DNA of 38,995 bases, from IMG/VR virus record IMGVR_UViG_3300038701_002672, positions 1-38,995 of that record. One strand, given 5' to 3'. The position numbers were made by a program, and so were the translations under genes. Below the pieces are notes generated by a model, which worked only from the letters and a program-made list of their open reading frames with translations, did not search any database and was not told the origin of the DNA. The stretch comes from a virus. Below are positions 2,978 to 38,995 of the stretch, in pieces (the stretch's first letter is position 1; the number at the start of each line of letters is the position of its first letter).

Positions 2978-3301
2978 TTGATATTCTTGCTTGTCATTGC
3001 TATCTTGCTCTTCATGGTTTTAAGTATCTTCAGAAAACTCAGGCAATTTAATCGTCTAGTCAAAACTGCTAATCACAAGGGGTTTATCTACAAAAATCGC
3101 CTTCTTTGGTTTGCTGATTATAAAAACAATTCCAGTCATGACATGCCCTTATGTCCTAATTGTTACGGCACTAAACTCAGCACAATCCCAATGCAGCCCA
3201 AATCTGACCGCCGCTGGTTCTGTTATGCATGCAAGCTAGAATATATCGGGAACCCATTCCTAAACACGCCTTACAAACATTCTGAATCAGCTGCTGATTA
3301 A
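2978..3301 (+). CDS. Membrane-anchored zinc-ribbon protein, 107 aa
   Basis: The annotated start is the TTG at 2978. The frame is open further upstream (SSKALDTFSLKE...), so a rarer upstream start is possible. Residues 1-18 form a membrane helix (LLVIAILLFMVLSIF), followed by a basic stretch and a C-terminal zinc ribbon with CPNC (near residue 59) and CYAC (near residue 82). It is a diverged paralogue of the TGA-interrupted gene just upstream; both share PLCPxC ... MxPKx ... RxFCxxC. Its location in the lysogeny/immunity region suggests a lysogenic-conversion or exclusion role, which is untested. It converges with the XRE gene, five bases away. Confidence 0.65.
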   Translation: MIFLLVIAILLFMVLSIFRKLRQFNRLVKTANHKGFIYKNRLLWFADYKNNSSHDMPLCPNCYGTKLSTIPMQPKSDRRWFCYACKLEYIGNPFLNTPYKHSESAAD

Positions 3302-3305
3302 AAAA

Positions 3306-3581
3306 CTAAGCCGCAATATCTCCATCGACTAAATCCTTAGGACTTACTCCGAACAACTCCGCCATGCGGAATAGTAAGCCCGCGCTGACTCTGGAGAGGT
3401 CTTTTTTGCCATTCTCAATTAAACTGTAATAACTTCGACTGATACCAAGACGATTAGCAGCGTCCCCTCTTTTGAAACCTGCTCTCTCTCTCAATGCAGA
3501 AACATTATTAGGATACTCAATAACTCTGTTCTTCTTGCACTCGGTACATATGTGTTCAACTTGCTGCGTATTAACTTTCAT
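3306..3581 (-). CDS. XRE-family (Cro/CI-like) repressor, 91 aa
   Basis: The start is placed at the ATG at 3581, with GAGGGA four to five bases upstream; the longer frame from 3611 would run through the promoter. Residues 33-88 contain a helix-turn-helix of the Cro/C1 type (LRERAGFKRGDAANRLGISR, then SYYSLIENGKKDLSR). An N-terminal CTEC pair precedes it, perhaps a metal or redox site, or half of a zinc knuckle. Transcribed alone and divergent from a second XRE gene, it fits one arm of a bistable lysis-lysogeny switch. Which protein acts as CI and which as Cro cannot be decided from sequence. Confidence 0.8.
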   Translation of the reverse strand: MKVNTQQVEHICTECKKNRVIEYPNNVSALRERAGFKRGDAANRLGISRSYYSLIENGKKDLSRVSAGLLFRMAELFGVSPKDLVDGDIAA

Positions 3582-3593
3582 GATTCCCTCTTT

Positions 3594-3630
3594 GTATGTA
3601 CAATAAAACATACACCATAGATGATGTCAA
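3594..3630 (-). promoter_or_regulatory. Promoter of the minus-strand XRE gene with overlapping inverted repeat
   Basis: A perfect TTGACA lies on the minus strand at 3630-3625, with TTTATT 17 bases on (3607-3602). The inverted repeat GTATGT-8-ACATAC (3594-3599 with 3608-3613) overlaps the -10 and start site, as expected for an operator. Confidence 0.6.
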
Positions 3631-3658
3631 CTAAAAAACACATAATAATAAACTGATT

Positions 3659-3678
3659 CTATTAACTATAGTTAATAG
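3659..3678. promoter_or_regulatory. 20-bp perfect palindromic operator upstream of the plus-strand XRE gene
   Basis: CTATTAACTATAGTTAATAG is a perfect 20-bp palindrome that ends eight bases before the start codon at 3686. It contains TATAGT, a good -10 for the plus strand. The position implies autoregulation of the 127-aa XRE protein, or repression by its divergent partner. Confidence 0.65.
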
Positions 3679-3685
3679 GTAAGAA

Positions 3686-4069
3686 GTGATTGTGAATAAA
3701 AAGGAAATAGGGGAAAGAGTAAAACAGCTTCGCACCATGAAGGGCGTAAGCATTGAAAATTTAGCAAAGAAAGCTAAATTAAGTTACCAGTACACCTGGA
3801 GAATAGAAAACTCTTCGATTAAAAATGTTGGGCTAGACACATACATGGCCTTATCTAACGCCCTTGGAGTCCCACTATCTTATTTACTCTTCGGAGAAGT
3901 CTATACTTCAAATACGGAAAAGAAGGCTCTAGAGAATGCCATCATGCCAGGCAACGAGCTGCTACCATTAACTCCGATTGAAAAAAAAATGCTTGAAGGT
4001 TTTCGAAATATCGAGAAGAAAGAACAAAAAGCGTTCCTTAATATGATTGAAACCATTGCAAGGAAATAA
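3686..4069 (+). CDS. XRE-family repressor, 127 aa (lysogeny repressor candidate)
   Basis: The GTG at 3686 is used; a second GTG at 3692 is equally possible, since the ribosome site (AGGTAAG) is weak. Residues 8-66 form a helix-turn-helix domain (IGERVKQLRTMKGVSIENLA, then KKAKLSYQYTWRIEN and ALGVPLSYLL). A C-terminal helical segment (TPIEKKMLEGFRNIEKKEQK) is likely the oligomerisation part. There is no LexA/CI-type Ser-Lys peptidase domain, so induction by RecA-stimulated self-cleavage is unlikely. It heads the plus-strand operon running to the two-TM gene at 5325. This is the best candidate for the maintenance repressor, but that assignment is inferred. Confidence 0.75.
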   Translation: MIVNKKEIGERVKQLRTMKGVSIENLAKKAKLSYQYTWRIENSSIKNVGLDTYMALSNALGVPLSYLLFGEVYTSNTEKKALENAIMPGNELLPLTPIEKKMLEGFRNIEKKEQKAFLNMIETIARK

Positions 4070-4082
4070 TTGGGAGGTGTTT

Positions 4083-5324: not shown

Positions 5325-5639
5325 ATGCAGACATCTAACACCCCATTAATACTTGGATTTTCATGCTTTGGATATATCCTGGGTGAGGTCAGAACAATCG
5401 TTAATTTCATCAATCAGAAACCTAGCGATATCACTGACATAATAATGCTAATGATTGTCATGCTGTTATTTGGGATGGGTTTTGCGCTAACGATCTGGGG
5501 ATTTAAAGAAAAAAAGCAAATTAAAAAAATACTTCAAGAAATTCAATCTAGACAATCTATTCAATTTGTACCAGCCCAAGCCCCAATATACTACCCAGTT
5601 AAAAAAAACTCTTCAAAGAAACAATCATTGCCTCTTTAA
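5325..5639 (+). CDS. Two-transmembrane hypothetical protein, 104 aa
   Basis: Residues 6-22 (TPLILGFSCFGYILGEV) and 38-60 (IIMLMIVMLLFGMGFALTIW) are hydrophobic enough to span the membrane. A basic cytoplasmic helix (KEKKQIKKILQEIQSRQ) and a Lys/Ser-rich tail follow. The ribosome site is weak. As the last gene of the lysogenic operon it may be a membrane-located exclusion protein, by analogy with other prophage two-TM proteins. No sequence family supports that specifically. Confidence 0.5.
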   Translation: MQTSNTPLILGFSCFGYILGEVRTIVNFINQKPSDITDIIMLMIVMLLFGMGFALTIWGFKEKKQIKKILQEIQSRQSIQFVPAQAPIYYPVKKNSSKKQSLPL

Positions 5640-5731
5640 AGAGCTTCAATCATAGAACTGCCCCGAATAGAATCATCACCATCCAGCACTGATAAAAAAT
5701 TTCCATTTCATAATCAGAATGTTTATAACAA

Positions 5732-5756
5732 GTAACCTTCCGGTTACAATTATTTT
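5732..5756. terminator. Short terminator between the convergent immunity operon and integrase
   Basis: GTAACC-TTCC-GGTTAC is a perfect 6-bp stem with a 4-base loop, followed on the plus strand by AATTATTTTA. The stem is short, so efficiency is uncertain, but the position after the last plus-strand gene is right. No gene is visible in 5640-5909. Confidence 0.5.
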
Positions 5757-5786
5757 AATGTCAATGAGTCTCTTTAGCCTATTAAA

Positions 5787-5825
5787 GATCAACATAGCAC
5801 CCCCTGCAATTGGTTATTGTTGATC
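5787..5825 (-). terminator. Weak hairpin downstream of integrase
   Basis: GATCAACA (5787-5794) pairs perfectly with TGTTGATC (5818-5825). On the minus strand the stem is followed by TTTAAT. It may end or stabilise the integrase transcript, but the long loop makes it a weak terminator. Confidence 0.3.
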
Positions 5826-5909
5826 CTCACCCAGCGCACAGATAAACCATATTTTTCAGATACTTGCAATACGAGTTAAAACACTTAGAATAAGTTTATG
5901 CTTGTTTGA

Positions 5910-6983
5910 CTAATCAGATTTCTGTTTATAATCAGGCATGCGATGCACCGCATCGATTAAAGTCTGCGGTAACGAGTGCGCATAGCGCTCTGTCATCTTA
6001 CTATTACTATGCCCCAGCAAGGTCTGCACAGCGCGTAGATCCGCGGTATTCTTCAAGACATACGTCGCAAAGGTATGCCTAAAACTATAAGGACTAATTT
6101 TTTCTTTGATACCAGCACGTTTTAGCGCTCGGCTAAGCCCGTTTTTCATTTCTTTCTGATGACCTTCTATTTTCCCAGGAAACAAGTAATCATCGTTAGC
6201 CTTGTCTTTAATATGCTCTGCTAGATTTAGTTTTAGATTCTCATTTACAGGGACTGTCCTAAAACGCTTAGTTTTAGACTTTTTAATAACAAAGTGATTA
6301 TCTACAATGTCTTCTACTTTTAGCCGCAGAGCCTCGCTTGGGCGCATGCCGGTGTAGTATAGAATCATGAAGTAAAGCTTGATATGTCCAGTCATCGCGT
6401 CAATTGTACGACTTAATAAATCAGGGTCAACATATTTCGGCGGTAGCTCCTCAACTTTTGGTCTTTTGAAGTTTTCAAAAGGATTAATTGAAATATACTT
6501 TTTTTCGATAGCGTAGTCATACATTTTCTTTAAAAAGGCAGATAGCAGTCTAATCGTGTTCGGCTTATAGTTCTTTAGATAACAGTATTTTAAAACTATA
6601 TTTGAATCGATCATATTAATCATAAAATCACCGACTTGCTTGTATTTCTTTGCAACACCAACAAACATAAACCCTACCGCTTCATGAGAAGAGTCTAGCT
6701 TAAGAAAAGAATTAATTAGCAGACGATTTATTTTTATTGTGCTTTCCGCGTGATAGCCGAGCAACGAGTCTAGATAGTCTACAGTCAGCTCAAAAAGTGA
6801 AATTTCTGACGGCGGCAACTCTATATCAAGACGTAAATAAGTCTTATCTTGCTCATAACGACTCAGTACTTTTCTTGCTTCTGACTTAGTGATCTTGCCT
6901 AGACGAATCCATTTTTGCTTACCTTTAATATAATCAATCAGGTAATAAACACCGTCTTTTTTCTGCCTTGTAATACTAGCCAT
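5910..6983 (-). CDS. int: Tyrosine integrase, 357 aa
   Basis: Site-specific recombinase that integrates and excises the phage at tRNA-Thr. The N-terminal 60 residues resemble an arm-binding domain, residues about 63-175 the core-binding SAM-like domain, and 185-345 the catalytic domain. Visible active-site elements are Arg214 (TGMRPSEAL), Arg302 in YSFRHTFAT with His303, His325 in LLGHS and the nucleophile Tyr334 (TERYAH). The first His of the usual HxLRH box is Tyr299, a tolerated variant. The start at 6983 has no clear ribosome site, and two integrase-arm-like repeats lie directly in front of it, suggesting self-repression. The gene is transcribed away from attP. Confidence 0.95.
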   Translation of the reverse strand: MASITRQKKDGVYYLIDYIKGKQKWIRLGKITKSEARKVLSRYEQDKTYLRLDIELPPSEISLFELTVDYLDSLLGYHAESTIKINRLLINSFLKLDSSHEAVGFMFVGVAKKYKQVGDFMINMIDSNIVLKYCYLKNYKPNTIRLLSAFLKKMYDYAIEKKYISINPFENFKRPKVEELPPKYVDPDLLSRTIDAMTGHIKLYFMILYYTGMRPSEALRLKVEDIVDNHFVIKKSKTKRFRTVPVNENLKLNLAEHIKDKANDDYLFPGKIEGHQKEMKNGLSRALKRAGIKEKISPYSFRHTFATYVLKNTADLRAVQTLLGHSNSKMTERYAHSLPQTLIDAVHRMPDYKQKSD

Positions 6984-9833: not shown

Positions 9834-11206
9834 TATTGAGCCCCCAGCGATTGCATAATCTGCGCTGCTCTAGGATCATTCGGGTTTTGCTTGGCCCATG
9901 CTATGGCTTCTTGATCTTCAGCGCTCATCTGCTGATTTTGCCCGCCCGACATTGCTTTTTGAATCGCGGAAGCTTCTGTTTGATTCATGTACTCGCTGAC
10001 ATCATAGCCAGACTTGTTGAATGAATTAATATACTCATTCTGTTTATCCCGTGTTAAGCGCCTTAGGTTATTAAGTTTAGCCATCCTAACCTCAGGCGTG
10101 TCTGTCATCGTTGGAAGTATTCTGTCGTATTTTTCTTCATCTTCTTTGCGCAATACCCCACCCTCCAAAAACTTAGCGACAAACTGCTTAGCTGCGTTAA
10201 CTTCAGACTGTACATTTTGCGTCTCTGTATCATAAGGATTTAACGATGAAATTCTTCCAGCGATGGGGCCACCAATGTTCTGATTAGACTGTAGTGTTGT
10301 CTCTAGCTTGTCTAGAACCGCCGGGATATTGTTCCCGTCTGCTAAGAGCACAGCTTGTGTTGCAGGAAGTCTTTGGCCTCTTTCATCTCTTGCCTTGTCT
10401 CGGCTATATTTTTCCTGATCCATTAAAAACTTTTGTTGCGCCATGTCTGCACGCATCATTTCCAGCGGATTTAAAGACGCTTTTTCTTTTAAGAAATTAG
10501 TAAAATTAGGGTCTTGCTGTGCGTACTTATATTCTTTGACATTATTAGTCATCAGATCCCCCCCTTTCTGCAGCTTCATGAACTCGGCAATGGCGGACTT
10601 TTGTCTGTTAGCATAATCATCAGCGATCTTATTGCCCTGTCCCATGTAGACTTTTTGCAGTTCTCGGCCGTTGTTGGGGTTAAGCGATCCGACGACACCT
10701 GCTAAGCCGTTCATGATTGCAGAGAACATGTGCGCGTTTTTTTGTTTTTTTAATGAATCATGATCTAAGCCAAACTGGAACTTCATCGCCTCAGGATCAT
10801 TGCCCACAGGGTCTTGGCCGTAGGGCTGTGCGCCTTGACTCCCCAGATTATTCGCGCCCATGCCTAGGTTAGGGGTTTGTGGGGGCTGCATGGCTAGTTC
10901 TTTTGGGCTACCGAATGGCTCGACGTGCAGATGATCTTTTTCAAGGATCGGCTGGAAGCCTTGTTCTTGATAATAAGACTTCATCTGGTCAATTTCTTCG
11001 GGGCTCTTACCCATCGTTCGCAGATCAATGGCATTGCCGCTGGTATGGAAGCTATTGGGCACGCCTCCCACCGCTGCATTCTCATCGGGGCTGCGCATGG
11101 CACTGGTAATCATTTGTTCAAAGGGCGCATTTCCTGCCGCTTGGCGAAGAGCTTCCGCGATTGAGCTAAAGCCTTGTTTGATCTTATCATCTTTAAAATT
11201 AAGCAT
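9833..11206 (-). CDS. Ejection protein with N-terminal M15 peptidase domain, 457 aa
   Basis: The ATG at 11206 is preferred over the TTG at 11221; GAGAGA lies six bases upstream, and it overlaps the previous stop (ATGCTTAA). Residues about 10-97 form an M15 peptidase: SFHTSGNAIDL gives His54 and Asp61, and DHLHVEP gives His92 and His94. The remainder is Gln/Asn-rich and helical. The protein ends with AEDQEAIAWAKQNPNDPRAA, a motif also found in the immunity-region protein at 4177-4866. The likely role is local peptidoglycan digestion during genome ejection, as a structural component. A free lysis enzyme is less likely because a dedicated endolysin is present. Confidence 0.75.
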   Translation of the reverse strand: MLNFKDDKIKQGFSSIAEALRQAAGNAPFEQMITSAMRSPDENAAVGGVPNSFHTSGNAIDLRTMGKSPEEIDQMKSYYQEQGFQPILEKDHLHVEPFGSPKELAMQPPQTPNLGMGANNLGSQGAQPYGQDPVGNDPEAMKFQFGLDHDSLKKQKNAHMFSAIMNGLAGVVGSLNPNNGRELQKVYMGQGNKIADDYANRQKSAIAEFMKLQKGGDLMTNNVKEYKYAQQDPNFTNFLKEKASLNPLEMMRADMAQQKFLMDQEKYSRDKARDERGQRLPATQAVLLADGNNIPAVLDKLETTLQSNQNIGGPIAGRISSLNPYDTETQNVQSEVNAAKQFVAKFLEGGVLRKEDEEKYDRILPTMTDTPEVRMAKLNNLRRLTRDKQNEYINSFNKSGYDVSEYMNQTEASAIQKAMSGGQNQQMSAEDQEAIAWAKQNPNDPRAAQIMQSLGAQ

Positions 11207-12302
11207 AAAAATCTCTCTCAATCGTCGATCCTAGTCTCGATCCATTGACGTAATAATAGCCTTTGTCAGTTAAGATATCGTAGGTATTAGGCGAGTCATG
11301 TTCGACTGCTGTTGCAGTTTCTAGCTTTTCAAAGAACGGATGCCCGAAACTCATGATGACTTGTTTGCCGTTTTCAAAAACATGCTTATAGAACTTATGT
11401 CCAGGTGCACGCCTTCTGCTATGTGTTGCAATAACTCGACCGCCACGGACAATGTCCCCGACAATAATGGTCTCAACCGGCTTGCTACCGCCATCTTCTA
11501 GCTCAATCTCTGTGCCTCTGGGCAGACATGCAGCGCTCGCAATAGACGCCCCCATACCGAATAACGAACTAAACGGGTCACCTTTTCCTGACTGCCCGCT
11601 GGACATCATCGGTGCCCCGAGGTTAGTTTTGTAGAGATTATCAATCATCTGATAGGGTCGCATACCCGCCTGATCGATCTGGCTATGCAGCGTGCCCATG
11701 GTGCCGATTTGGTTTTGCTGGATCTGGTTGAATGCTTGATTAGCGGCGAGACTTTGCTGAGTGCGGCCCATATTCTCCCCTGCCTGCATGCCTTGGCGCT
11801 GCAAGTCCATCTGCCCCTGCATTTTATCAACATCTAGTTGGTCTTTAGCTTGCTGCAGGCCATATTGCGATCTGACCCCAGCCATATTCTGCGCAGCGTT
11901 TCTAGCTGCAGTGGTCTGTGCACCGTAGTTAAGCCCGCTCTTCCCAAAGCCTCTGGATGCAAAACTCTTGTTAAGCTGTGACATCCCTTGAGACATGTCT
12001 TGCTTCATACCGTCTAGCGTACTGTTAAGCGCATTGCCGTAAGCGGACTTTGGCGCATAACTAAGATTAGGCGTGTTAAATTTAAAATTACTACCCGCGT
12101 TATACTGAGGGATGTTCTGCCCGCTAAGCAACTTGCCAGCGGTGACATGCTTCTGCATATTAGAGTAGTCTTGCATCATCCCATAGTTGGGAGTTGCGCC
12201 TTGGGCAGTTTTATAGAGTTGGTCCTCTAGTCTGCCCGTGTTTTGTGGTTTATAGAGAGCCTGAGGGCCTCCGCCGCCTTTGCTGCCACCCATTGACATC
12301 AT
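11199..12302 (-). CDS. Virion protein with C-terminal Hint (intein-like) domain, 367 aa
   Basis: Residues 1-258 are Gly/Gln/Met/Ala-rich and helical, like a podovirus ejection protein (repeats such as MQGQMDLQRQGMQAGENMG). Residues 259-367 match a Hint domain: the nucleophile Cys259 in ACLPRGTEIELEDGG, the VETIIVGDIV block, ATH at 292-294, GHPFF at 320-324 and a terminal YYVNG with Asn353. In inteins and Hedgehog proteins this fold catalyses an N-S acyl shift and cleavage at the Cys. There is no substantial C-extein, so splicing is unlikely and C-terminal self-cleavage or ligation is the expected chemistry. The gene ends by overlapping the M15 ejection protein. The domain call is good; activity is inferred. 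Confidence 0.75.
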   Translation of the reverse strand: MMSMGGSKGGGGPQALYKPQNTGRLEDQLYKTAQGATPNYGMMQDYSNMQKHVTAGKLLSGQNIPQYNAGSNFKFNTPNLSYAPKSAYGNALNSTLDGMKQDMSQGMSQLNKSFASRGFGKSGLNYGAQTTAARNAAQNMAGVRSQYGLQQAKDQLDVDKMQGQMDLQRQGMQAGENMGRTQQSLAANQAFNQIQQNQIGTMGTLHSQIDQAGMRPYQMIDNLYKTNLGAPMMSSGQSGKGDPFSSLFGMGASIASAACLPRGTEIELEDGGSKPVETIIVGDIVRGGRVIATHSRRRAPGHKFYKHVFENGKQVIMSFGHPFFEKLETATAVEHDSPNTYDILTDKGYYYVNGSRLGSTIERDFYA

Positions 12303-14488: not shown

Positions 14489-14737
14489 ATGCCAGAAATA
14501 GCCCGATTTTACGGGATCATCATTAAGCTCTTTTTTGGAGACCATGCTCCGCCTCATTTCCATGCGGTCTACGGTGAGGATAATGCCTTGTTTAATATCC
14601 AAACTCTTGAGATGATCGAAGGGGATTTACCGACCAGGGCTAAAAAGCTCGTACTGGAATGGGCCTCGATGTATCAAAAAGAGCTAATGGATATGTGGGA
14701 TCAACAAGAGTTCCGTAAACTTCCACCGTTGAGGTAA
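14489..14737 (+). CDS. DUF4160 protein, 82 aa (predicted toxin-antitoxin-like partner)
   Basis: GGAGG precedes the ATG by nine bases. The sequence MPEIARFYGIIIKLFFGDHA, with PPHFHAVYGED, is diagnostic of DUF4160, as is the later RAKKLVLEW segment. The HxPPHFH-like cluster may bind metal. DUF4160 genes are commonly paired with DUF2442, as here with a five-base gap, and are often listed as predicted toxin-antitoxin or stress modules. The biochemical activity is unproven. It lies on the opposite strand to all late genes, so it is an independent cassette. Confidence 0.85.
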   Translation: MPEIARFYGIIIKLFFGDHAPPHFHAVYGEDNALFNIQTLEMIEGDLPTRAKKLVLEWASMYQKELMDMWDQQEFRKLPPLR

Positions 14738-14741
14738 TTTT

Positions 14742-14996
14742 ATGAATTATCCTAAAATCATTTCGGTTAAAGCCTTAGACAAGCACACTTTAGCAATCGA
14801 GTTTGAGAATCACGAGAGCAAGAAATATGACATCACCCCACTACTAGACAAAGAAATGTTTTTTCCTCTCAAGGATCCAGCTTTATTCAAAAATGTACAC
14901 GTCGAAACTGGGGGCTATGCTGTTAGCTGGAATAATGAAATTGATATTAGCGAGCATGAGCTTTGGGTGCATGGCACTCCCATGCTGGGCTCTTAG
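14742..14996 (+). CDS. DUF2442 protein, 84 aa
   Basis: GAGG lies eight bases before the ATG. The pattern MNYPKIISVKALDKHTLAIE, then LLDKEMFFPLKDPALFKNV and AVSWNNEIDISEHELW, is typical of DUF2442 (NE0471 N-terminal domain-like), complete at the usual length. Together with DUF4160 it forms a two-gene operon that ends facing the HigA gene. It is probably the antitoxin or partner half, from family context only. Confidence 0.88.
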   Translation: MNYPKIISVKALDKHTLAIEFENHESKKYDITPLLDKEMFFPLKDPALFKNVHVETGGYAVSWNNEIDISEHELWVHGTPMLGS

Positions 14997-15001
14997 CCTA
15001 C

Positions 15002-15301
15002 TCAATTTTTCAAGCTAATCTGCTTAATTTTTTTTAATGCCCCAGCCAACTTATCTTTCTGAGTCTCTAGATCAAAATGCACTTGCAGATTCATCCAAAA
15101 CTCTGGCGTCACTCTAAAATAGCGCGCTAGTTTCAAAGCTGTGTCTGCAGTAATCCCGCGCTTCTTGAGCACAGTCTCATTAATTCTACGCGCTGAGACA
15201 TTAATGCTTTTAGCAAGTGCTAATTGACTCATCCCCAAGGGCTCTAAGAACTCTTTTTTTAAAATCTCGCCGGGGTGGATTGGAGCTGTTTGTTCCATCA
15301 T
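15002..15301 (-). CDS. higA: HigA-type antitoxin without adjacent HigB, 99 aa
   Basis: The family signature IHPGEILKKEFLEPLGMSQL opens the protein. An XRE helix-turn-helix follows (ALAKSINVSARRINETVLKK), then the conserved RYFRVTPEFWMNLQ and DLETQKDKL segments. HigA neutralises the RelE-like mRNA interferase HigB and represses its own operon. No HigB-like gene is found on either side: upstream is a tail-fibre-associated gene and downstream, convergent, the DUF4160/DUF2442 pair. It may be an orphan that protects against a host or competitor HigB, or it may serve as a plain regulator. Confidence 0.88.
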   Translation of the reverse strand: MMEQTAPIHPGEILKKEFLEPLGMSQLALAKSINVSARRINETVLKKRGITADTALKLARYFRVTPEFWMNLQVHFDLETQKDKLAGALKKIKQISLKN

Positions 15302-15817: not shown

Positions 15818-16843
15818 CTATCCTCTACCGAATATAACCACGTTAAAATACATATCAGTTTTAATCCCATTGTCAGCTGTGTAAACTTCCGTTACATTAG
15901 TATTAACTAACCCTGTTGCTGCAACTTGATCATTTAATGCCGCGCCAACATCTGTACTGACTACACAAGTAAAATTTGAACTACTTAAATTTGTATCAAA
16001 AATTACATGATATTTCCCAACTCCAACTTTACCTGATGCCACAGCATCAATATTATATGAATTGGGTTGAACAACACCTGTTGAAGAAAGTTGCCCATGG
16101 ACATTCACACCACTATTCCTATTAATATACCCACCGAATGTCGGAGGATCCACATCAGGCAGCAGCATCTCGCCGTCCGAGTTAATCGTGATCTTATCCG
16201 AACCGCCGACTTCGATCTTGATCGTGTCATCCGATGAACACCTAATCGACGTGTCGTTATCAGCATCCAGATCGATACGGTTGCCATTGCTCACCAGATC
16301 AATCCCTGAAGTGTTAATCCTAATCCGGTCAGAGCCGCCGGCTTCAAAAGCAATGACATCATCAGATAAACACCTAATCGACGTGTCGTTATCAGCATCC
16401 AGATCGATACGGTTGCCAGTTGTCCCTAGATCTATCGCTACAGAAGCATTATTAAACGTCTTCGTCCCGCTAATAGTCTGCGCTCCCCCGGTCATCACAA
16501 AGTCCGCATTAGCACCCGGGTCTGGGATCGTCAGCGTTCTATCATTTGCACTATTAGCATATTCTAACGCCGCCTTGCCTGCACCCGCTCCGCCTATCTG
16601 TGCTTCGCCCGCTTCCCAGCTATGCACGCCCGTCCACGGGTAATCCGCTGTTAGATCTAGGCTACCTCCTGTCAACTTCGGCCCGTTGCCAGGCGTGCCA
16701 TCGTGGGCATGGCCCGTGGCAACGTTAAGACTGCCGTTGTAGGTGTCTCTAATGTCTGTTTGCAGATTAGTGTTCATCTGCGCCGATGCGATAATCGTAT
16801 TCGGCGAAAACGTATATGTTACGCTCATGCTATGATCTGCCAT
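15818..16843 (-). CDS. Tail fibre / receptor-binding protein, 341 aa
   Basis: The N-terminal 60 residues contain SVTYTFSPNTIIASAQMNTN and a GHAHDGTPGNG block common in phage fibre proteins. The middle has repeated beta-rich units with NRIDLDADNDTSIRC and SDD...GGSDxIxIN. The C-terminus (TEVYTADNGIKTDMYFNVVI) is likely the receptor-binding tip. Two 44-residue repeats share a 50-bp identical DNA block. It sits between the nozzle/adaptor genes and the moron island, where host-range proteins usually lie. There is no endosialidase- or pectin-lyase-type catalytic motif. Confidence 0.75.
   Translation of the reverse strand: MADHSMSVTYTFSPNTIIASAQMNTNLQTDIRDTYNGSLNVATGHAHDGTPGNGPKLTGGSLDLTADYPWTGVHSWEAGEAQIGGAGAGKAALEYANSANDRTLTIPDPGANADFVMTGGAQTISGTKTFNNASVAIDLGTTGNRIDLDADNDTSIRCLSDDVIAFEAGGSDRIRINTSGIDLVSNGNRIDLDADNDTSIRCSSDDTIKIEVGGSDKITINSDGEMLLPDVDPPTFGGYINRNSGVNVHGQLSSTGVVQPNSYNIDAVASGKVGVGKYHVIFDTNLSSSNFTCVVSTDVGAALNDQVAATGLVNTNVTEVYTADNGIKTDMYFNVVIFGRG
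16237..16418. repeat. Direct repeat inside the fibre gene (50 bp, 132-bp period)
   Basis: Bases 16237-16286 and 16369-16418 are identical. The offset of 132 equals 44 codons, so units can be gained or lost in frame. Each copy encodes the GNRIDLDADNDTSIRC segment of the shaft. Confidence 0.9.
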
Positions 16844-30825: not shown

Positions 30826-31638
30826 TTATTCCAAATCAGGTTCTTGAGGCAATGGCATCCAGAGCTCAGGGTACCATTTGCCATCATCTGCATATGTCCC
30901 AGTGGCACAAAGATCCCAGTACCCACCATTTTTTTCAAAAGAATCTTCAAACCATGCTACAGTGGCCATAACACCTACTGCCGATATCTTGTTGTAAACC
31001 TCACATTTAGCGAATCCCAAAATGGGAGTCCCATCTTTCGGAGCTGTCTCAATTGGTTGCCATTTATTAGTATCATTTTTAACGCCATCGCTAGCATCCA
31101 GAACTTCCCAGCCTTCCACTTTGCCGAGTATGTCAAAATACTTTTCAGTATTATCTTCACCATTCATGGCAAGCAGTGTCACAAATAATTCATTTGTTAC
31201 CATCCACTCTTTTTTCTTCTTTGAATAAAAGATACTATAGTTGCTTGCCCAGCTTCGATGCCTAATCTTTTTTTCGTCTCGCATTGATAAATAGATCGCT
31301 TCCCAAGACGTAATACTTTCCTCCGAAAATTTACTTTTAAGAAACTCTAATTCTTCTTTAATGTTTATCAAAAGTGACTCAATTGCTTTGAGATGACAAA
31401 ATTTCATCCCCGTTGGTGTAGCCCCTTTTAAAGATGCCCCGACTAACCATTCGTAAGCCTTGCCCTCATAGTCAACTTTTGTACAGACGACTACAAAATC
31501 ACCGTTACCGATTCCTTTCGTAGTCACATGGAATCTAATCAACTCACCGTCTTCTGGGACGAAAGGCCTCACTTCCCAATCTTTATCAAAATTAATAAAC
31601 GGAATGATTTTTTCGTATTGGATAATATCTGAACTCAT
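30826..31638 (-). CDS. DUF551-containing protein, 270 aa
   Basis: The C-terminal 75 residues begin with WQPIETAPKDGTPILGFA and end WMPLPQEP, the classical DUF551 pattern common in phage accessory proteins. The N-terminal 190 residues are unrecognised, mixed alpha/beta, with LVGASLKGATPTGMKFCHLK and a Lys/Trp-rich part. The gene is the first one after the structured-RNA region and has its own GAGG site. The function of DUF551 is unknown. Confidence 0.75.
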   Translation of the reverse strand: MSSDIIQYEKIIPFINFDKDWEVRPFVPEDGELIRFHVTTKGIGNGDFVVVCTKVDYEGKAYEWLVGASLKGATPTGMKFCHLKAIESLLINIKEELEFLKSKFSEESITSWEAIYLSMRDEKKIRHRSWASNYSIFYSKKKKEWMVTNELFVTLLAMNGEDNTEKYFDILGKVEGWEVLDASDGVKNDTNKWQPIETAPKDGTPILGFAKCEVYNKISAVGVMATVAWFEDSFEKNGGYWDLCATGTYADDGKWYPELWMPLPQEPDLE

Positions 31639-31650
31639 TTTAAAACCTCA

Positions 31651-31907
31651 AAAATAAAAAAAACTCATCCTGTGCCAGTCGCTACCCTGGCTCAGCTTAG
31701 GTCCTATTACTTTCAATTTAGCAACTATTGAAAGAACGCTCCTGCTAGGGATGTTCATATATCCGGATTCAGATCATCGCTGTAGCAAGACTCGCAGGAT
31801 AAACCTTAATACTAACATCGTTGGACCGTGTGTCTCCAATGGAATACTTTCAGGTGATTTCTGCCACTCTCCATATTCCATAGCTTTCCACACCGACAGG
31901 ATGAGTT
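31651..31907 (-). ncRNA. Candidate structured RNA, about 250 nt, closed by a 12-bp end helix and a U tail
   Basis: No convincing gene occupies 31639-31905. On the minus strand the RNA would start with AACUCAUCCUGU (31907-31896) and end with ACAGGAUGAGUU (31673-31662), which pair perfectly. UUUUUUAUUUU-type sequence follows directly. Inside lie further exact helices: GUGUG/CACAC (31893-31889 with 31832-31828) enclosing UGGAAUA/UAUUCCA (31880-31874 with 31846-31840); UCCUGC/GCAGGA (31799-31794 with 31745-31740) enclosing GGAU/AUCC; UUUCAAU/AUUGAAA (31733-31727 with 31717-31711); and GCCAG/CUGGC next to the end helix. The helices are mutually compatible. No known RNA class is recognised, and no strong promoter is visible upstream. 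Confidence 0.6.
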
Positions 31908-32118
31908 ACGAAACCATCTTCTTAGCCAACTCAACAATATCATGTTTGTAACATAAGAAGTCTTTTTTGGCAAGCTCTCTATTGCTAAAATATTTATAAT
32001 TTTCATGTATTTGCATAAGATTTCCCCAGTTATCTACAACTCTAGCACGCCACCTGCAGCGGCCTTTTTTATCGGACGGGAATCCTGCTGTGATTTTGTA
32101 GTTTTGTTTAATAAACAT
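31906..32118 (-). CDS. Basic hypothetical protein, 70 aa
   Basis: The ATG at 32118 overlaps the previous stop (TAATG), which decides the start against the longer frame from 32184. The protein is Lys/Arg/Trp-rich (KKGRCRWRARVVDNWGNLMQ), resembling small AP2-like or DNA-binding phage proteins, but no family is certain. The tail is helical (KKDFLCYKHDIVELAKKMVS). Its stop codon coincides with the 5' end of the structured RNA. Confidence 0.6.
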   Translation of the reverse strand: MFIKQNYKITAGFPSDKKGRCRWRARVVDNWGNLMQIHENYKYFSNRELAKKDFLCYKHDIVELAKKMVS

Positions 32119-32372
32119 TAAGAACGCTCTTTTTCTGCGTCTATAGTCCCTTGTTTTTCCCACAGCACGCCTTCGGGTCCGCAAGGTCCAATTCCAGTGA
32201 AGATAATTTCTCCACCATGCTGGTGCTCAATATGTACTTCTAGATTTTTACTTCTCATTTCATAAATGCCATAGCTTCCAGAGCTTTCATGTGTACAATT
32301 TTCAAATAATTTATGCCCCTTCCAAGTCGCCGAACCACATTCATAAAACTTACAATCCTCACATTTTTTCAT
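32118..32372 (-). CDS. Cys-rich small protein, 84 aa
   Basis: GAAGGA lies upstream of the ATG. The N-terminus MKKCEDCKFYECGSATWKGH, with FENCTHESS, has a four-Cys spacing (CxxC-x5-C ... C) like small phage zinc or iron proteins. The rest is Gly- and His-containing with no known domain. It is coupled between the VRR-NUC and the 70-aa genes by overlaps. Confidence 0.65.
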   Translation of the reverse strand: MKKCEDCKFYECGSATWKGHKLFENCTHESSGSYGIYEMRSKNLEVHIEHQHGGEIIFTGIGPCGPEGVLWEKQGTIDAEKERS

Positions 32373-32728: not shown

Positions 32729-33220
32729 CTAAGCCACGCCCTGATAACGCTCATCAAGGACATGATTCATTTCCCTTGTCGCCTCCTTTGCCAAATCATC
32801 AAATCCAGCATTCGGATATTTCTCATTCAAGCTTTTAGCCTGTTTGTATTTCCATTCCAGACGCTGCTCTTCAGAATCAAATCGCTTTGCAAAAAGCTCC
32901 TTAACGAATCGACACACATCTTGGCCGATTTTACTGCGTTGTCTCTCGGGCTTAAAAGTATTTTGAGCTTGCCAGCGCTCGTTAGCCTTAGCTCTCTGCG
33001 CCTCCTGAGCCCTCACCTTCTCCGCATACCTCAGCACCACCTCAGGCGTCGGAAAGAACTTTTCACTCGTCGTGATCGCATCAATCGCTAGCATATAATT
33101 CTTTGTTTCAAGCCATTTGATTTTATTAAACCAAGCTGACATGCCAGCAGGACTCGGCAGTTTACGATCGTAGAAACCGCATAGATTTTCCATGCCCTTC
33201 GCAAAATCATGATGATTCAC
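32729..33220 (-). CDS. Putative helicase-loader-like replication protein, 163 aa
   Basis: It starts with a GTG preceded by GAGGTG, overlapping the initiator stop. The N-terminal 70 residues (FAKGMENLCGFYDRKLPSPA, then AIDAITTSEKFFPTPEVVLR) have the pattern of phage replication accessory or loader proteins such as G40P-loader-type domains. The C-terminal half is charged and helical. Position directly behind the initiator supports a lambda P-like role in bringing the host helicase to the origin. Sequence support is modest. Confidence 0.55.
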   Translation of the reverse strand: MNHHDFAKGMENLCGFYDRKLPSPAGMSAWFNKIKWLETKNYMLAIDAITTSEKFFPTPEVVLRYAEKVRAQEAQRAKANERWQAQNTFKPERQRSKIGQDVCRFVKELFAKRFDSEEQRLEWKYKQAKSLNEKYPNAGFDDLAKEATREMNHVLDERYQGVA

Positions 33221-34388
33221 ATTGCACCTCGTGGTTATCAGCGCAGCTTTTCAGCCACGCATCGATTGAACTTTCAGACGAATTGTGTTCATCCTCCCAG
33301 CCCTCAGCGTTCAGCCACGTCGAGGCGTGGGGGATGTATCGGCCGTTCTCCTTGGCCCACTGATCCGAGGTCTTGGCATACTCGAGGGTGGCGAGGATCT
33401 TCCCTTGGAGCTGCTCGTTCGGATTCAGTTTTTTCCAGGTCTGCCTTGCCTGGCCCTTTGAGATTTTTTTGGGATATGCCCCCCAGAAGCGCTCAAAGTT
33501 CGCTTGCTGCTGCTTCGTTAGTCCACCCGTGTTGCGGGTCTTGGCCCGACCAGTCACCATTTCGGCCTCTACGGTCTGCTCGCCGTCAACTGAGTTTTTT
33601 AACAAAACATTTTTCACACCATCCCCACCCCTGGGGGGGTAAGGGGGGTATTTATATTTAACTTCCTCTTTAACTTCCTCTTTAACTTCATGTCCCAGAC
33701 CGTTAACAGTAGCTGACCCCCCGTTAACGGTACCCTGACCCCCTGTTAACAGTGCATCTTTATACATAAATTCCCCGCTTTTTTCTCCAAAGCCTTCTGG
33801 CCACGGCATCTTTGCTTTAGACGGGTCTTTATCTCCCTTCTTCGAGTTACAACGCTTGCAGGCTGTTATCAGATTTTTTTTAGAATTTGTTCCACCAGTG
33901 CTATGTGGGATCACATGATCAAGACACATAGCCCTGCGCTTATCTTTCAAATCTTCATGACAGTATTGACAAGTATAGTTATCTCTATTGTAAATTTCTC
34001 TTCTTAGCTTTTCTGTGGGATATCGGCCTCGCGCTGGTCCATTAAGCTCAACTCCAGGGTAGTTGGGCAAAACGTCTTCTCCGTATTTTCTTAATCCAGG
34101 CTGGTGTTTTCTAAAACTTAAAGCATGGATCCACTCATGACCCTCTTCATCTTCCCACCATTTAATATTTGTTTTTTCGTTTATCTCAATTAAACACTCT
34201 TTAATTTTTTCCAAACTAAGCCAATCAATATGTCGGCATACGATCCCTTTTATCGTGTAGGGATTCCCATCCATCTTACCATACGAGTTAAGCTGTGGTA
34301 TGATAAGGCAGAACAGCCCCAAAGCCTCTGGGCTTAACGAAGCTACAGCCCTAGACATGTTAATCGACTCTTGTATTAATCTAGGCAT
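33207..34388 (-). CDS. Replication initiator with internal HNH domain, 393 aa
   Basis: Residues 1-105 form a winged-helix initiator domain (RLIQESINMSRAVASLSPEA, with IKECLIEINE and HALSFRKHQPGLRKYG), as in lambda O-type organisers. Residues 124-186 are a complete HNH module: CQYC (140-143), LDHVIPHSTGGTN with Asp157-His158, NLITACKRCNSKKGD. A flexible linker (210-295) encodes the iterons. The C-terminal part (FERFWGAYPKKISKGQARQT, then GRYIPHASTWLNAEGWEDE) is a classical phage replication C-terminus. The start has GGTGG upstream. The HNH may nick the origin, recognise DNA, or be a captured homing domain; which is unknown. Confidence 0.8.
   Translation of the reverse strand: MPRLIQESINMSRAVASLSPEALGLFCLIIPQLNSYGKMDGNPYTIKGIVCRHIDWLSLEKIKECLIEINEKTNIKWWEDEEGHEWIHALSFRKHQPGLRKYGEDVLPNYPGVELNGPARGRYPTEKLRREIYNRDNYTCQYCHEDLKDKRRAMCLDHVIPHSTGGTNSKKNLITACKRCNSKKGDKDPSKAKMPWPEGFGEKSGEFMYKDALLTGGQGTVNGGSATVNGLGHEVKEEVKEEVKYKYPPYPPRGGDGVKNVLLKNSVDGEQTVEAEMVTGRAKTRNTGGLTKQQQANFERFWGAYPKKISKGQARQTWKKLNPNEQLQGKILATLEYAKTSDQWAKENGRYIPHASTWLNAEGWEDEHNSSESSIDAWLKSCADNHEVQCESS
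33640..33752. other. ori: Candidate replication origin inside the initiator gene (iterons plus AT-rich tandem repeats)
   Basis: Three GTTAAC-centred iterons lie at 33702, 33723 and 33745, 21 and 22 bp apart. Two of them share TGACCCCC next to the palindrome. Directly beside them are three tandem 12-mers TTTAACTTCCTC (33657-33690, the last partial) and TATTTATATTTAA. Iterons followed by AT-rich DNA within the linker of the initiator gene is the lambda arrangement. Confidence 0.6.
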
Positions 34389-38815: not shown

Positions 38816-38995
38816 GACTGCAACTCCTTTTCTAGAGCTGCTTCTAGTGCAGACGAATGATTGACAAACATTTTCTTGGGATCTTTACTAGACGACTTAA
38901 AGCCTAAGCCAGCCAAGAAATCATAAGTAAACTCATCAGCGAGAGCCCATAGATAAGTCTGATTATTATACTCGCTAATCCAATAAGGTTTCTCT
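38812..38995 (-). CDS. Putative annealing protein, C-terminal part (continues at 1..774)
   Basis: The last 61 codons of the gene that begins at 774. The region upstream of about 38870 duplicates the left end of the window. It ends with TSALEAALEKEL-type sequence and a TGA overlapping the nuclease start. The last two bases of the window differ from the left copy and are probably an assembly edge effect. Confidence 0.7.
   Translation of the reverse strand, partial: EKPYWISEYNNQTYLWALADEFTYDFLAGLGFKSSSKDPKKMFVNHSSALEAALEKELQS
38869..38995. repeat. Terminal overlap, right copy
   Basis: Matches 1-127 with differences only at 38869, 38994 and 38995. The length of 127 equals a common assembler k-mer, which suggests a closed circle and not a biological repeat; that is an inference. 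Confidence 0.9.

Follow-up and report, generated by a model that had tools for sequence, protein, structure and literature searches.

A stretch of 246 nt lying between the replication and packaging genes of a phage, with no credible gene in it and predicted to fold into a closed, multibranched structure, raises the question of whether it is a functional RNA and, if so, what such an RNA would do at that position. The window analysed here is the whole stretch of DNA in IMG/VR record IMGVR_UViG_3300038701_002672, which holds one virus sequence of 38,995 bases.

The phage and the gap between its replication and packaging genes

An exact 124-nt repeat is found at both ends of the record (2-125 and 38870-38993), which is thus probably a complete, circularly assembling phage genome. 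The phage is probably temperate, as it carries a tyrosine integrase together with repressor-like helix-turn-helix ORFs near 3300-4070, the latter judged by eye. The genes taken as real from 38815 down to 15002 all lie on the minus strand and form a collinear replication-packaging-virion block. It begins with a PD-(D/E)XK nuclease, small unknown ORFs and a Rep-like protein with an HNH domain, and continues with a helicase-loader-like protein, a VRR-NUC protein and two small ORFs. Beyond the structured element come a 270-aa ORF and small-terminase candidates, followed by the large terminase and then by the portal-like genes and the rest of the virion region. In the replication-initiation-like protein at 33207-34388 the HNH endonuclease domain lies mid-protein (about residues 124-194) and is perhaps an inserted homing endonuclease.

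The gap at 31639-31905 (267 nt) is the largest non-coding gap of the minus-strand block, the runner-up being 175 nt, and is bounded on one side by the TAA stop of ORF 31906-32184 (minus) and on the other by the ATG of ORF 30826-31638 (minus). Two open frames cross the region and neither has a credible match in PHROGs or Pfam (one Pfam match was sub-threshold, E 0.08), in agreement with an earlier note on this DNA, made from the sequence alone, which had seen no credible gene here. The features referred to below are as follows.

5910-6983, minus strand: tyrosine integrase
31906-32184, minus strand: upstream ORF, 92 aa from a TTG start (70 aa from an internal ATG), no family match
31662-31907, minus strand: whole structured element, 246 nt, 5' end 31907 and 3' end 31662, closed by a 12-bp helix, predicted minimum free energy (MFE) -79.7 kcal/mol
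31896-31907, minus strand: 5' arm of P1, AACUCAUCCUGU, its first two As being the final bases of the upstream ORF's TAA stop
31828-31893, minus strand: P2 domain, predicted to form GUGUG/CACAC, next AUGGAAUAU/GUAUUCCAU, next a GUGG/UCAC hairpin
31700-31827, minus strand: P3 domain, closed by GGUCC/GGACC and containing P4 (31783-31790/31740-31747) and P5 (31727-31734/31710-31717)
31674-31691, minus strand: P6 hairpin, GCCAG/CUGGC, directly adjoining P1, pair probability 1.00
31662-31673, minus strand: 3' arm of P1, ACAGGAUGAGUU, mean pair probability 0.95
31650-31661, minus strand: U-rich tract UUUUUUAUUUUU (U6AU5), immediately past P1
31636-31649, minus strand: Shine-Dalgarno-like GAGG (31649-31646), eight bases before the ATG (31638-31636) of the downstream gene
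30826-31638, minus strand: downstream ORF, the first gene past the element, 270 aa, its C-terminal third resembling a Paracoccus phage protein

Predicted fold and its significance

The two ends of the element form an exact inverted repeat (31662-31673/31896-31907) of 12 bp, 100% complementary, with 222 nt between the arms, which bears out the pairing over 12 bp described in the earlier note. The U-rich tail that the same note had placed after the closing helix is likewise present, as U6AU5 at 31661-31650 on the minus strand, and the first pairs of P1 use the As of the TAA of ORF 31906-32184, so that the coincidence of the 5' end with the stop of the previous gene also holds. In the predicted minus-strand fold P1 closes a four-way junction with P2, P3 and P6, with a CG linker between P1 and P2, none between P2 and P3, the 8-nt UAAGCUGA between P3 and P6, and none between P6 and P1. 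P2 is made up of 5 bp, then 9 bp, then its hairpin; P3 has 5 bp, with P4 and P5 inside, and P6 has 5 bp. Mean pair probabilities range from 0.92 to 1.00 for P1, P2, P3, P5 and P6, and P1, P2, P3 and P6 are retained when the element is folded in a 600-nt context. The set of helices proposed earlier (12, 7, 7, 6, 5, 5 and 4 bp) keeps its 12-bp closure, with the other lengths corrected in the predicted fold to 9 (one G-U), 8 (one G-U), 8, 5, 5, 5, 5 (one G-U), 4 (one G-U) and 4 bp, besides some short ones, and its 6-bp member, probably TCCTGC/GCAGGA, would form at the expense of the 8-bp P4 of the prediction. The P6 loop GGUAGCGA is able to pair over 6 bp with the P5 loop AGUUGCUAA, a possible kissing pair (p 0.014, uncorrected, with 10 loop pairs tested).

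Only on the minus strand is P1 followed by U6AU5, no such tract being present on the other side, and five G-U pairs are found in the minus-strand fold against two in the plus-strand fold. The MFE z-scores of the 246-mer are similar on both strands (-3.4 on the minus and -3.7 on the plus strand, with none of 200 shuffles as stable), and therefore do not by themselves tell the strands apart; it is the U-tract and the direction of the genes which favour the minus strand as the RNA strand.

Significance was judged against dinucleotide shuffles, and as one gap was picked among several in the genome, all of the figures are weakened by a small factor. At most one in 400 shuffles was as stable as the whole fold, a closing helix as long as P1 around the whole region arose in 0.25-0.75% of 400 shuffles, and the structural entropy of the element is low (p 0.02). 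A scan for T-tailed, far-spaced repeats (at least 12 bp with at least four G/C, arms 140-420 nt apart, then at least seven T in eight) returned one occurrence, this element, in 4.24 Mb of fetched loci and window on both strands. The bulk of the significance sits in P1 and P2: the P2 domain is significant by itself (z -3.6, p 0.002), the P3 domain falls short of significance (p 0.11), and the inner 222 nt without P1 are near chance (z -1.5, p 0.08).

It could thus be argued that an ordinary intergenic spacer or decayed gene folds by chance and was singled out by a reading of the entire window. The near-chance values for the inner 222 nt and for P3 are consistent with this, as is the failure to find conservation, and in the window-wide fold scan (mean z -0.43, sd 1.3) a few other stretches, mostly coding, also reach z -3 to -4. 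However, the combination of P1 and U-tract is unique in the 4.24 Mb, P2 and the whole fold exceed nearly all of their shuffles, and the element fits exactly between a stop codon and a ribosome-binding site in an otherwise compact block, so we consider chance folding unlikely. The strongest fold signal of the window scan is found elsewhere, at 5601-5846 on the minus strand (z -6.1), where ORF 5325-5639 (plus) and the integrase (minus) are separated by a U-tailed 20-bp hairpin near 5605-5650, probably a terminator of the conventional kind close to the integrase end.

Search for relatives and comparison with known phage RNAs

The earlier note recognised no Rfam class, and a search with the Rfam 15 covariance models agrees with it: no family scored at or above its gathering threshold anywhere in the window, and at E <= 10 the region 31500-32050 gave no relevant hit. 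Comparison of the element and its flanks with phages and plasmids by blastn gave no matches or chance ones only, a pattern of the paired P1 ends had no match in viral contigs, and patterns built on the unpaired core matched once in viral contigs and eight times in genome contigs. Eight of these core matches scored below the best shuffled score; the remaining one, in locus L250, was slightly above it with only 50 shuffles, and none is convincing as a relative. Blastn likewise detected no relative in the 165 loci collected from the surroundings of related terminases. A covariance model built on the single sequence matched only the element itself when run over 90 sources (826 kb), 22 complete phage records and 398 bacterial genomes (Croceicoccus phylum). 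As single queries the 270-aa ORF and the whole terminase gave no matches.

The closest phage relative in the terminase-based collection is L088 (also L245), record IMGVR_UViG_3300036401_000062 (terminase 53%, portal 47%), in which the element is absent and the 1 kb upstream of the ORF-77 homologue, where the contig starts, is filled with other small ORFs; the element is therefore not a fixed companion of this terminase. Portal-based searches recovered L088 and one distant relative only, and no prophage. As far as these comparisons reach, the element is an orphan, without detectable relatives in the sequences searched, and as the pattern-based scans are blunt, absence from these sequences should not be taken as absence in nature.

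Among known systems, the late leader of lambda (the 6S RNA of pR'-tR') and the StxS RNA of Stx phages resemble the element in their site between early/replication and late genes and in a terminator-like end with a U-tract. In Stx phages the pR'-tR' region, which gives rise to StxS, undergoes transcription and termination in lysogeny, and the RNA so left has a regulatory role (PMC7873438). These RNAs differ from the element in that no promoter-like site or Q-like gene was recognised for the element, its stem encloses 222 nt and no sequence similarity was detected. The element would work most like a late leader, which is the best fit, and is at most a candidate for the lambda type.

The other two roles suggested in the earlier note, an antiterminator and a packaging-linked RNA, fit less well. 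The put RNAs are about 70 nt long, comprise two stem-loops and lie downstream of early promoters (PMC9378689). The element shares with that of HK022 the character of a structured phage RNA which, if acting in cis on the nascent transcript, could affect termination. However, it is 246 nt long, has a four-way junction and lies at the late border, so identity with the HK022 RNA was rejected on size and fold; neither a put-like signature nor an antiterminator gene was recognised. With the phi29 packaging RNA it has in common that it would be a phage RNA with packaging genes in its neighbourhood, but there is no match in Rfam and no pRNA-like signature, the phage has a conventional large-terminase gene, and what speaks for a link with packaging is gene order, the element lying about 1.1 kb upstream of a small-terminase candidate. 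GOLLD and ROOL are likewise phage-encoded, highly structured and of unknown function; GOLLD RNAs are in many cases longer than 800 nt, and GOLLD and ROOL alike are often found near tRNA islands (PMC12286853), whereas the element has 246 nt, no tRNA and no Rfam match.

Several further identities were considered and rejected. No model for a group I or group II intron, a tRNA or a tmRNA matched (Rfam, ARAGORN). The ends are paired as in a retron msr-msd RNA, but comparison with Pfam and PHROGs revealed no reverse transcriptase in the ORFs on either side. A miniature inverted-repeat transposon was set aside on finding no target duplication at the ends, no second copy in the window and no match to the paired repeat in viral contigs, and a CsrB-like decoy on the count of GGA motifs, of which there are eight against 5.4 +/- 1.7 in shuffles, mostly in stems.

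Candidate roles at the border of early and late genes

When the leader, switch and trans-acting readings are added together, it is probable that the element is a functional RNA of one kind or another. Among them we tentatively prefer a structured, cis-acting leader or border RNA of the minus-strand transcript, in which P1 may serve as an unusual long-range intrinsic terminator or mark a processed 3' end; the proposal of a long-range terminator is made because the 12 nt at either end pair with each other immediately ahead of the U-tract. Under such a model, transcripts of the early region would reach 31907 and the RNA would fold while emerging; the 3' arm of P1 would then stack on P6 and capture the 5' arm with the polymerase standing on the U-tract. 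P1 and the U-tract would thus have the anatomy of a terminator with a 222-nt insert, placed where the early replication genes give way to the late terminase and virion genes, and expression of the latter would depend on read-through or antitermination, comparable to lambda pR'-tR'. What the sequence itself displays is the anatomy, the position, the one-sided U-tract and the statistical excess of P1 and P2; we infer transcription of the element, termination at the U-tract, control by antitermination and any further role of the released RNA.

The leader reading is favoured because the element exactly fills the largest gap of a collinear block, flanked upstream by proteins of replication type (Rep/HNH, helicase loader, VRR-NUC) and downstream by the genes for the terminase and portal-like proteins, and because P1 is followed by U6AU5 on the minus strand only, the single such repeat in 4.24 Mb. 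The significant MFE, the low structural entropy and the greater number of minus-strand G-U pairs also favour it, as does the conventional 20-bp U-tailed hairpin near 5605-5650 of the same phage. It is weakened by the absence of a homologue from the sequences searched, by a terminator stem which atypically encloses 222 nt, by an inner structure which without P1 is near chance (p 0.08), and by a plus strand which folds about as significantly (z -3.7). The late-operon leader of the earlier note is retained as the best fit for a structured element at the replication/late border that is absent from Rfam and has a minus-strand end like that of a terminated transcript. No sigma-70-like site was found directly upstream of the element, although the promoter types of the host may differ. 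The reading is further weakened in that no Q-like or other antiterminator family was recognised among the neighbouring proteins (Pfam, PHROGs), a search which would miss distant or novel Q types and which left several small ORFs unassigned. A simple terminator scan does not call P1 with its U-tract, the loop limit of the scan being 8 nt.

The lambda terminator is a local hairpin; if the proposed leader is true, its terminator would instead be built on a long multibranched structure. If transcribed, a structured RNA outside Rfam would be placed at the point where the phage decides between early and late expression. In our judgement, the control of late genes has been little explored in phages far from laboratory models, and uncultivated phages may hold many lineage-specific RNAs of this kind.

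A discrete phage ncRNA acting in trans and directed at host, phage or packaging targets, whether released by cleavage at P1 (RNase III being one candidate enzyme) or transcribed from a separate promoter, appears rather unlikely. The compact closed fold with its paired ends and well-defined pairs, and the possible kissing pair between P5 and P6, are what would be expected of it, and stable phage RNAs are known, both as GOLLD and ROOL (PMC12286853) and as StxS from a late leader (PMC7873438). However, there is no promoter-like site directly upstream, no homologues were found in other phages and no indication of a target or of a packaging role emerged.

A further reading is an intercistronic switch acting in cis on the downstream gene, ORF 30826-31638, which we regard as slightly less likely still. 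The 5' arm of P1 would, on the modelled pairings, pair either with the 3' arm or with the Shine-Dalgarno sequence and the AUGAGUU start, so that the start would be exposed when P1 is formed and hidden when P1 is open. The 7-mer ATGAGTT is present both in the 3' arm (31668-31662) and at the start codon (31638-31632), and when the 3' arm is made unavailable the predicted pairs are 31901-31907/31632-31638 and 31898-31900/31646-31648. Out of 44 phage start regions, only that of ORF 30826-31638 shares at least 7 nt with the P1 arm, and a random phage 12-mer matches this start region as well in about 2% of cases. However, the match was spotted after the fact and its statistics are weak, the P1 fold is better than the alternative by about 15 kcal/mol, meaning that something must open P1, and no ligand or factor is known. 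That the four-way-junction leader should represent a new class of phage RNA, which both ends its own transcript through a helix spanning 222 nt and controls the next gene by pairing of its 5' arm with the start codon, would combine the two proposals and is improbable.

Least probable among the alternatives is a site acting at the level of DNA, such as a pac or cos region or a replication origin, with palindromes that fold as RNA by accident. The place between replication and terminase genes is a usual one for such sites, and the fold of the plus strand is about as significant as that of the minus. Against this, the region has no iterons or strong short direct repeats, the GC-skew has no turning point there, the small-terminase candidate is about 1.1 kb away with the element upstream of it, and P1 arms set 222 nt apart in a nested fold, with a one-sided U-tract, fit an RNA better.

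Further features were noted among the virion-region genes of the phage. At 14489-15301, an ORF for a HigA-like antitoxin is accompanied by two small ORFs on the plus strand, the set looking like a toxin-antitoxin moron. Within ORF 15818-16843 an 81-nt segment is repeated at 89% identity (16227-16439), which is likely to be a duplication within a structural protein such as a tail fibre, and the C-terminal part of the protein encoded at 11199-12302, CLPRGTEIELEDGG...VGDIV, resembles by eye a Hint/intein-like domain.
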